This document shows positions 17,819 to 56,122 of a DNA stretch of 64,000 bases, piece by piece. Each line of letters begins with the position of its first letter. Position 1 is the stretch's first letter. Both the position numbers and the translations under genes were made by a program. Under the pieces are notes generated by a model. That model was not told where the DNA came from. It did no database searches and saw only the letters and a program-made list of their open reading frames with translations. The stretch is taken from assembly GCA_029906985.1 (NCBI GenBank), contig JARYMT010000002.1:1-64000 (forward strand), given 5' to 3'. This stretch comes from Microgenomates group bacterium (GTDB lineage: Bacteria; Patescibacteriota; Microgenomatia; UBA1406; GWC2-37-13).

Positions 17819-19344
<1,526 letters not shown>

Positions 19345-19350
19345 CTTTTT

Positions 19351-41137: not shown

Positions 41138-41440
41138 ATGTCGGTTTATGAATTAACTTTTCTTCTTAAACCCGAAGATAAAGAAGAAAGTAAAAAAATC
41201 AGAGAATTGCTCCAAAGTTTTTCCGCCAAATTATTAGGAGAAACTATTTGGGAGAAAAAAAAGCTTGCCTATCCAATAAAAAAAATTGAAACGGCTGATT
41301 ATTATTTATGGCAAATTGCTGTTGACGCTAGTCAAATTGGTGAATTGAGAAAAAGACTGAATTTTAACGAAAAAATTATCCGTTATTTATTATTAAAAAT
41401 TGCCTCTAAAAAACAAGTATTAAATAAGGGGCGTCAATAA
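41138..41440 (+). CDS. rpsF: 30S ribosomal protein bS6
   Basis: Small-subunit protein, 100 residues, standard length. MSVYELTFLLKPE at the start, WEKKKLAYPIKKIETADYYL in the middle, and LNFNEKIIRYLLLKI at the end are family-typical. It binds 16S together with bS18, encoded two genes on. It is the first gene of the canonical rpsF-ssb-rpsR operon, with 6 nt to ssb. Confidence 0.94.
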   Translation: MSVYELTFLLKPEDKEESKKIRELLQSFSAKLLGETIWEKKKLAYPIKKIETADYYLWQIAVDASQIGELRKRLNFNEKIIRYLLLKIASKKQVLNKGRQ

Positions 41441-41983: not shown

Positions 41984-42193
41984 ATGAAAACTTGTTTTTT
42001 TTGCCAGTACCAAATTGAGCCAAGTTTTAAAGACGTTGATAATTTGGCTAAGTTTTTAACTACGAGAAAAAAAATTGTCAGCCGGCAAAATAGCAATTTA
42101 TGCGCCAAACACCAAAGGCACTTAGCCAAACAGATCAAGTACGCCCGCTATTTGGCTCTCATCCCTTATGTCTCCTATCAGGGAAAAAAATAA
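41984..42193 (+). CDS. rpsR: 30S ribosomal protein bS18, zinc-finger form
   Basis: Small-subunit protein of 69 residues. CFFC at residues 4-7 and CAKH near 40 give a likely zinc site, as in C+ forms such as that of Thermus. NLAKFLTTRKKIVSRQNSNL matches the bS18 core. bS18 and bS6 form the platform next to bS21 and the anti-Shine-Dalgarno end of 16S. It follows ssb by 9 nt and ends the operon. Confidence 0.93.
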   Translation: MKTCFFCQYQIEPSFKDVDNLAKFLTTRKKIVSRQNSNLCAKHQRHLAKQIKYARYLALIPYVSYQGKK

Positions 42194-46984: not shown

Positions 46985-47818
46985 ATGAAAATTTTAGTCA
47001 CCCATATATCTCCTGACCTTGATGCCATCGCCGCCTGCTGGCTGATCCAGAAATTCCTTCCCGGCTGGAAAAAAGCGACAATCAAATTTGTCCCTGCTGG
47101 CGAGACGCTAGACAATCAACCAGTCGACTCAAACCTGGAAATAATCCATGTTGATACCGGTTTAGGAAAATTCGACCATCACCAAACAACCAAAAAAACC
47201 TCCGCCACCAAATTAGTTTTTGAATATCTTGTCAATCATCAATTTATTAAACCGGATTTAAAAGAACCCTTGGAAAGAATTGTTTTTTATATCAATGAAA
47301 CCGATCATTTTCAAGAAGCCTATTTTCCAGACCCGACCGCTGATTATTACGATTTCTGTCTGCACCAACTTGTCGACAGCCTCCGGTTTCAGCTTTACGA
47401 CAATCTGCAACTTATTGATACGATCAAACTCCTTCTTGATGCCGAACTCACTTTGTTTAAAAATAAAGTCAAGGCAGAAAAAGAAATTAAAAAGGGTTTT
47501 GTTTTTCAGTCAAAATTTGGCCAGTCAATCGCCATGGAAACCGCTAATGAAGAGGCGGTTAAACTCGCCTTAAAAATGGGTTATCATTTGGTTATCAAAA
47601 AAGACCCGGTTAAAGGCCATGCCCGCCTCAAAACTTTGCCGGAAAAAAAATATGATCTGACGCCGGTATATGAAAAAATAAAATCGCTTGATAAAAAAGG
47701 CAGCTGGTTTTTGCATATTTCCAAACATATGCTTTTAAATGGTTCGGCGAAAAATCCCCGTCATGTCGCCACCCCCTTATCTTTAAAAAAACTAATTGAA
47801 ATAACTAAAAAAGTATAA
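46985..47818 (+). CDS. DHH-like phosphoesterase (MYG1-like) candidate
   Basis: Protein of 277 residues. The N-terminus has THISPDLDAIAACWLIQKF, a D-x-D metal site like that of DHH phosphoesterases, then IIHVDTGLGKFDHHQT, matching the DHH-x motif. Near the C-terminus comes WFLHISKHMLLNG. The order resembles MYG1-type nucleases/phosphoesterases, which act on RNA or oligonucleotides, but the match is partial. The ATG follows TAAAAT by 7 nt. It is a single gene between hisS and rpsU. Confidence 0.6.
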   Translation: MKILVTHISPDLDAIAACWLIQKFLPGWKKATIKFVPAGETLDNQPVDSNLEIIHVDTGLGKFDHHQTTKKTSATKLVFEYLVNHQFIKPDLKEPLERIVFYINETDHFQEAYFPDPTADYYDFCLHQLVDSLRFQLYDNLQLIDTIKLLLDAELTLFKNKVKAEKEIKKGFVFQSKFGQSIAMETANEEAVKLALKMGYHLVIKKDPVKGHARLKTLPEKKYDLTPVYEKIKSLDKKGSWFLHISKHMLLNGSAKNPRHVATPLSLKKLIEITKKV

Positions 47819-47868: not shown

Positions 47869-47878
47869 AAAGGAGGTG
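47869..47878 (+). promoter_or_regulatory. Perfect Shine-Dalgarno site of rpsU
   Basis: AAAGGAGGTG, 10 of 10 complementary to the 16S 3' end (19335-19344), with 7 nt between GGAGG and the ATG. Most other genes in the window show no such site. Confidence 0.85.
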
Positions 47879-47883
47879 TTTTT

Positions 47884-48072
47884 ATGGTTTTTATTACCAA
47901 AAAAAAGGGCGAAAACAAAGATACAATTTTTAGAAAATTTACCCGGTCTTTTATCGAAGAAGACATTGTTACCGAAGTGCGCAACAAACTTTTTTACAAA
48001 AAACCCTCACTGGTTCGCAAAGAAAAAGAAAAGGAAAGGGCTAAATTAAGATATAGTAAAAAAAATTATTGA
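47884..48072 (+). CDS. rpsU: 30S ribosomal protein bS21
   Basis: Small basic protein of 62 residues next to the 16S 3' end. DTIFRKFTRSFIEEDIVTEV and the Lys/Arg-rich tail KEKERAKLRYSKKNY match the family (E. coli 71 residues). It is the only gene in this window with a perfect Shine-Dalgarno site. In Bacteroidetes, bS21 helps hide the anti-Shine-Dalgarno and rpsU has such a site for feedback; the same could hold here. ybeY follows after 10 nt. Confidence 0.9.
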   Translation: MVFITKKKGENKDTIFRKFTRSFIEEDIVTEVRNKLFYKKPSLVRKEKEKERAKLRYSKKNY

Positions 48073-48082
48073 GAAAAAATTT

Positions 48083-48433
48083 ATGATCAATATCGTTATT
48101 TCGTCGCGCTATAAAATTGAAAGAAACCGCTTAAAAAAAATCGTCGCTGATATGTTGGCCCAAAAAGGATTTGGTCCCCAATATAATTTAAACATTATTT
48201 TTATTGGAAAAAACAAGATGCGTAAAATTGCCGACCAATACAAAAAAGAAAATTTAGCCCTGCCGGTTTTGACTTTTTCCTATCTTGACGAAAAAAATAA
48301 TCCGGAAAATCTTTTGGGCGAAATTTTTATTTGCTATCCCCAGGCAGTTCTTTTGGCCGCCGAAAGAGATAAAAGAGTTGATGAAATGATTATCAATCTT
48401 ATTGATCACGGAATAAAAAATTTATTAAAGTAA
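48083..48433 (+). CDS. ybeY: YbeY-like protein lacking most of the metal-binding motif
   Basis: Protein of 116 residues (E. coli YbeY 155). The fold landmarks are present: ISSRYKIERNRLKKIVADML, LNIIFIGKNKMRKIADQYKK and LLGEIFICYPQAVLLAAERD, matching the family LGDIxI segment. The family's final motif HGxLHLxGYDH, which binds zinc by three His, is cut to DHGIKNLLK and stop. Only the first His remains, and no remnant is readable downstream before dnaX at 48448. It is probably not a metal-dependent nuclease. It is co-directional with rpsU and dnaX. Confidence 0.75.
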   Translation: MINIVISSRYKIERNRLKKIVADMLAQKGFGPQYNLNIIFIGKNKMRKIADQYKKENLALPVLTFSYLDEKNNPENLLGEIFICYPQAVLLAAERDKRVDEMIINLIDHGIKNLLK

Positions 48434-55695: not shown

Positions 55696-55720
55696 CTTTT
55701 TAAAAAGGGGGTGATTGACA

Positions 55721-56122
55721 ATGACTGAAAAAAAATTATCAGAAAAAGTGGCTAAAATCGCCAAAGAAATTGAAGAATTAACTGTTTTGGAGACAGCAGA
55801 ATTAGCCGAGTATCTGGAAAAGAAGTTTGGGGTTTCCGCCGCTCCGGTGGTTGCCGCCGCTCCTGCTTCAGGCAATGGAGAAAAAGCCGCTCCCGCTTCT
55901 GAAGAAAAATCTGTCTTTACTGTCGTTTTAAGCGATGCCGGTGCCAATAAATTAGCAGTTATTAAAGCGGTAAGAGAAATCAACGCTAATTTAGGATTGA
56001 TGGAAGCTAAAAAATTAGTTGAATCCGCTCCCAAGGATTTATTGGTTGATGTCAAAAAAGAAGTGGCAGAAGAGGCAAAAAAGAAATTAGAAGCGGCAGG
56101 AGCCAAAGTGACTTTAAAATAA
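55721..56122 (+). CDS. rplL: 50S ribosomal protein bL12
   Basis: Stalk protein that recruits translation GTPases, 133 residues from ATG 55721 (usual 120-125). N-terminal dimer domain [19 protein letters not shown], an Ala/Pro-rich hinge, and the C-terminal domain with [20 protein letters not shown] and [18 protein letters not shown] at 55715 lies inside its Shine-Dalgarno site and is rejected. The site AAAGGGGGTGAT (55704-55715) matches the 16S 3' end at 11 of 12 positions. Confidence 0.95.

Follow-up and report, generated by a model that had tools for sequence, protein, structure and literature searches.

Long Shine-Dalgarno sites precede rpsU and a small conserved set of other short genes in a Roizmanbacteria genome where most genes carry none

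The genome studied here belongs to Ca. Roizmanbacteria, within the Microgenomates of the CPR, and its genes appear to fall into two tiers of translation initiation: most would start without a Shine-Dalgarno (SD) sequence, while long SDs would boost a small conserved set of short genes that includes rpsU, the gene of ribosomal protein bS21. We regard this reading of the sequence as reasonably probable (roughly 0.6). The window analyzed is a stretch of 64,000 nucleotides taken from a 953 kb genome in 16 contigs that is 98% complete, and the features on which the argument turns are collected in Table 1. All energies are ViennaRNA duplex values in kcal/mol, a different program from the one used for the Bacteroidota (PMC9976891), and start codons are those of our own ORF calling.

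Table 1. Features of the window referred to in the text, with SD energies in kcal/mol.
Feature	Position	Strand	Description
16S rRNA gene	17819-19344	+	RF00177; end reads GGATCACCTCCTTTC
16S 3' tail with anti-SD	19334-19346	+	UCACCUCCUUUCU as scored; mature 3' end only approximate
rpsF (bS6)	41138-41440	+	PF01250; without SD (-2.9)
rpsR (bS18)	41984-42193	+	PF01084; without SD (-0.1)
Gene 5' of rpsU	46985-47818		Pfam match to ChrB_C, sub-threshold only
Extended SD of rpsU	47869-47878	+	AAAGGAGGTG; 10/10 with the 16S tail of the same window
rpsU (bS21)	47884-48072	+	62 aa; PF01165, E 1.2e-8
ybeY	48083-48433	+	PF02130, E 4.5e-13; ten bases 3' of rpsU; without SD (-2.7)
Extended SD of rplL	55702-55714	+	AAAAAGGGGGTGA; -17.0
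rplL (bL12)	55721-56122	+	133 aa; PF00542, E 2.7e-24

The perfect match in front of rpsU that was described in the initial annotation is borne out. It ends five bases before the ATG at 47884, and its duplex with the 13-nt 16S tail has an energy of -16.0 kcal/mol, a value attained by 25 of 200,000 shuffled versions of the 22-base stretch that was scored. The strong rplL site described along with it is likewise real. The gene itself has a well-kept neighborhood: ybeY adjoins rpsU in 64 of the 67 family genomes and in 30 of the 86 class genomes examined, dnaX lies close 3' in 62 and 40 genomes, respectively, and the gene on the 5' side is present in 66 of the 67 family genomes. YbeY is an RNase linked to 16S 3'-end processing, and the products of rpsU and ybeY both work at the 16S 3' end.

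Ordinary genes present another picture. We scored the leaders of 418 ORFs of at least 100 aa, from 464 kb of this genome including the window, against the 16S tail; the sample contains a few spurious ORFs, and it misses rpsU, which falls short of that length, and rplL, which a longer antisense ORF masks. At -3 kcal/mol, 67 ORFs were observed against a shuffled expectation of 67.8, and at -5 there were 33 against 28.0. A modest excess appears at -6 (28 against 18.2) and at -7 (19 against 10.6); at -9 the counts are 7 and 4.0, and at -13 they are 4 and 0.1. Named relatives (429 ORFs) gave 116 against 119.2 at -3, 19 against 16.4 at -7 and 2 against 0.6 at -13. Ordinary genes thus lie near the shuffled expectation, apart from the modest surplus at -6 and -7 in this genome and a handful of very long matches; their median contiguous pairing with the 16S tail is 3 bp. 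Canonical initiation as in E. coli is SD-led at most genes: under the same scoring, 33 of 35 annotated E. coli genes reach -3 and none reaches -13, a situation quite unlike the one found here. The earlier claim that nearly all other genes lack a site consequently holds in the main.

Active depletion of SDs from ordinary genes was also considered and rejected, as the deficit seen relative to a mock window disappears against composition-matched shuffles. A slight rise in G count at -14 to -18 before the starts of this genome suggests that a faint SD trace may persist. In the same 464 kb, the base preceding ATG is T in 64% of 413 ATG ORFs, and A is enriched at -4, -8, -9 and -11; this T/A context may be a preference that serves SD-free starts.

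Long SDs are few and gene-specific. The pattern AAGGRGGTGN{3,9}ATG occurs 15 times in the whole genome, against once for the reversed pattern. One match is antisense within the gene 5' of rpsU and another opens a frame of only 25 codons; the remaining 13, together with HU, make 14 extended-SD genes, a lower bound that leaves off-pattern sites in the unsampled half of the genome uncounted. They encode bS21 (rpsU), bL12 (rplL), bS20 (rpsT), AtpE, HU, Hsp20, LemA, an RRM protein, a cupin, a DUF5320 protein, an 84-residue protein whose Pfam match is sub-threshold only, and three small proteins that match no Pfam family. All 14 are short (62-184 aa, median 94.5, against a median ORF of 253 aa in the sample). 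Among these at least 14 genes, rpsU comes 13th in SD strength: 12 of the 13 others are stronger, rplL and 11 genes located elsewhere in the genome, and only rpsT (-15.2) ranks slightly below it. The ribosomal protein SDs of this genome accordingly rank as rplL, rpsU and rpsT. We therefore reject rpsU as the top or sole target, both here and in the family, where the sites of hup, rplL and rpsT are stronger and just as well conserved.

The rpsU site is conserved far beyond this genome. bS21 was detected in 67 of 72 family genomes and in 170 of 187 genomes of the class sample. With the leaders of relatives scored against the 16S tail of this genome, which is assumed to be equal in them, all 67 family genomes have an rpsU leader at or below -9, and in 63 it is at or below -13; the median is -15.7 (one place was counted per genome; one of the two copies in G216 was omitted and L120 was unused). 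Within the order, one of the two genomes examined reaches -13. Of the 170 class genomes with bS21, 153 lie outside the family and order, and 90 of these were examined (the 30 best-scoring loci and 60 spread over families); after L031, L156, L165 and L176 were left out, 86 remained, and of these 67 reach -13 and 10 have no site (above -7). Absence of the site from rpsU of relatives had been set beforehand as a finding that would tell against the earlier reading; relatives instead keep a strong one.

Among 491 other ORFs in 31 family rpsU regions of at least 7 kb, a single one reaches -13, and rpsU has the lowest energy in 30 of these regions. Across 54 such regions from other families, 20 of 1001 ORFs reach that value and rpsU comes first in 40 regions. 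Taken with the shuffles, the family neighbors lead us to reject chance or composition as the source of the rpsU site.

Other members of the set are conserved in the family too. Leaders at or below -13 were found in 30/30 for hup (the best 30 of 70 family loci, median -20.4), 29/29 for rplL (the best 30 of 67, one dropped for want of a start, median -18.0), 29/30 for rpsT (the best 30 of 70, median -17.3, with 1/30 above -5) and 19/30 for atpE (the best 30 of 60, median -16.4, with 3/30 above -5). As a control, rpsR, encoding bS18, has no leader at or below -7 among the best 30 of 63 family loci, its best value being -3.6. For these five genes the best of one to three nearby starts was used, which introduces a small upward bias, and rpsR nonetheless remained at 0/30. 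Co-directional neighbors reach -13 in 0/73 cases around atpE, 2/92 around rpsT and 1/33 around hup. Across the 72 family genomes, AAGGRGGTGN{3,9}ATG occurs 2 to 22 times per genome and control patterns 0 to 6 times.

The way in which these sites vary also points to pairing. When the sites of rpsU, hup, rpsT and atpE are pooled, the A of GGAGG, opposite a U, has been replaced 63 times, and 53 of these replacements are G; G still pairs, although it accounts for just 9% of bases before the starts of this genome. Pairing potential, conservation, gene specificity and this pairing-type substitution pattern are seen directly in the sequences. One may still ask whether the purine block, whose pairing is predicted from sequence, is no SD but bound by a regulator, or left over from chance or base composition. 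We consider this very improbable, in view of the shuffles, the persistence of the site near the start codon in different genera, the preservation of pairing by G-for-A replacement and the restriction of the site to particular genes.

The rpsU sites differ in detail from the others. In the family, the base after the core is T in 42 of the 47 rpsU leaders with a clear core and A in none, while at hup it is A in 27 of 29 and at rpsT it is mixed. Under a less strict alignment, T follows in 55 and A in 3 of the 67 family rpsU leaders, the class counts being 53 for T and 12 for A among 76. Because of this T, rpsU forgoes one further pair, and in the 18 of 67 family leaders that have CG in place of TG, an inner pair is lost too. 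The rpsU sites (e.g., 47876-47879) read GGTGT or GGCGT, compared with GGTGA at hup sites.

In the two-tier reading that we prefer, most genes would use little or no pairing between mRNA and 16S, as suggested by SD scores near the shuffled expectation. The second tier would comprise hup, rplL, rpsT, rpsU and atpE, joined in this genome by the genes of Hsp20, LemA, the RRM protein and others, all with long SDs of mostly 8-13 bp. The 16S tail would pair with such an SD, recruit 30S subunits and raise initiation on these mRNAs; both the pairing in the cell and the raised output are what we infer from the conserved sites. In this scheme rpsU would be an ordinary member of the boosted set. It stands apart from other ribosomal protein genes, between an unassigned gene and ybeY, and would probably need a strong start of its own.

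A booster fits the genes that carry the site, since several of them encode proteins present in many copies in other bacteria (L7/L12, the c subunit and HU), and since rplL has a site while the gene just 5' of it, rplJ, lacks a clear one (-7.6). Copy demand does not account for the sites of bS20 and bS21, of which each ribosome requires a single copy. As only about 14 such genes were found, other abundant proteins must presumably be without a site. Also at odds with a plain booster are the T after the core of rpsU, the weak leaders in 3/30 atpE and 1/30 rpsT, and the siteless rpsU of 10/86 genomes outside the family. Furthermore, such a booster leaves the extreme length of the sites and the scarcity of intermediate ones unaccounted for, and a gate on the 16S tail would account for both.

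Such a gate can be conceived for the whole set. Access to the 16S tail would be restricted so that only long SDs open it, with bS21 as the gatekeeper in Microgenomates, and 30S subunits without bS21 would prefer hup, rplL, rpsT, rpsU and atpE (here also hsp20). The long helices are consistent with it, with median contiguous pairing of 12 bp at hup, 11 at rpsT, 9 at rpsU in the family and 8 at atpE against the 3 bp of ordinary genes, as are the four sampled ORFs at -13, with little in between. In addition, bS21 of E. coli is said to hinder the extended SD pairing seen in Staphylococcus aureus (PMC13009471, in the portion available). The excess at -6 and -7, however, suggests some graded SDs in this genome, although the named relatives show no such excess at -7; the residue Y54, considered below, is not retained, and SD use appears unlinked to bS21 loss. 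On balance we hold the wider gate to be a doubtful possibility. If it were true, ribosome composition would set the output of a whole gene set and not of rpsU alone.

The bearing of bS21 loss comes from a weak test. GGAGG...ATG use is not clearly higher in genomes where bS21 was not found (17 versus 57 genomes, P 0.29), and 5 of 8 within-family differences between genomes lacking and bearing bS21 are positive. The comparison covers families in which rpsU went undetected in one genome or more (74 of the 187 genomes), and some of the genomes without it are incomplete; the GGAGG...ATG counts have a ratio to control of mostly about 1.2 to 2, too coarse for ranking genomes. One class genome without detected rpsU (G086), a single contig that is 99% complete, displays an extreme strand asymmetry, with 28 forward and 258 reverse matches to GGAGGN{4,9}ATG and 7 and 200 for the control.

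The initial annotation had raised the possibility of a narrower model, in which bS21, bS18 and bS6 sequester the anti-SD and rpsU is autoregulated; as in Flavobacterium johnsoniae, ribosomes without bS21 would translate rpsU. According to the accessible part of PMC9976891, the gate in Bacteroidota is a pocket formed by these three proteins, and ribosomes without bS21 favor rpsU; a threshold of -13 kcal/mol was applied there, with another program. The Roizmanbacteria share with F. johnsoniae and other Bacteroidota an SD-poor genome with an intact anti-SD, and an rpsU SD of about 9-13 bp at or below that threshold (PMC9976891, same part). These are the points in favor of the model: a strong rpsU site is conserved, and passes -13 in this genome and most of its family, where SDs are mostly absent from other genes, whether in the 418 ORFs, the named relatives or the neighbors of rpsU.

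The remaining comparisons go against it. In most Flavobacteriales rpsU is reported as the single outlier (PMC9976891, same part), whereas here hup, rplL and rpsT have stronger sites that are equally conserved, rpsU is next to last among the 14 long-SD genes listed for its own genome, and the family medians place both rplL and rpsT ahead of it among ribosomal proteins. The F. johnsoniae pocket residue Y54, the sole one compared, is not kept: of 67 family bS21 sequences, 59 have K, Q or R at the corresponding position (47 of them K), and only two have Y. Chlorobia are nevertheless counted as likely cases though without Y54, in the same part of that paper. With Y54 replaced, rpsU not the strongest and no clear rise of GGAGG in the weak test on bS21-less genomes, feedback acting on rpsU alone, of the Flavobacteriales kind, is unlikely and without specific support, and we rate the narrower model somewhat below the wider gate. 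What stands of the earlier reading is that SDs are mostly absent despite an intact anti-SD and that the rpsU site is kept; the place of rpsU as top outlier falls.

Whichever mechanism applies, the lineage offers a natural contrast between the majority of genes, which ignore the anti-SD, and a small conserved set able to pair with it over 8-13 bases. This makes it possible to test outside the Bacteroidota what role is left to the SD when most genes do without it, and whether bS21 governs access to the 16S tail. CPR annotation may benefit as well, a long SD being a mark of true starts in short genes. We came across neither a paper addressing SD use in Microgenomates nor a title on the subject for CPR in our literature search, whose coverage excludes many preprints and subscription papers.

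Among known systems, the SD-scarce genomes with CCUCC of PMC10783764 also come close; in the part of that paper available, they share a canonical CCUCC and few SD-led genes with the present one (intact tail, four of 418 ORFs at or below -13, and counts at -5 near expectation). The available text and table place no CPR in this category, a few CPR being given instead as SD-scarce without CCUCC, and the conserved set of long-SD genes seen here is not described in that part for the category. Extended SDs of S. aureus similarly continue the pairing past the canonical helix on the start-codon side; according to the available portion of PMC13009471, an SD is present on about 84% of its mRNAs and an extended SD on about 30%, compared with at least 14 genes in this genome. 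What is new here is an SD-scarce genome that keeps an SD subset larger than, and different from, that of the Flavobacteriales.
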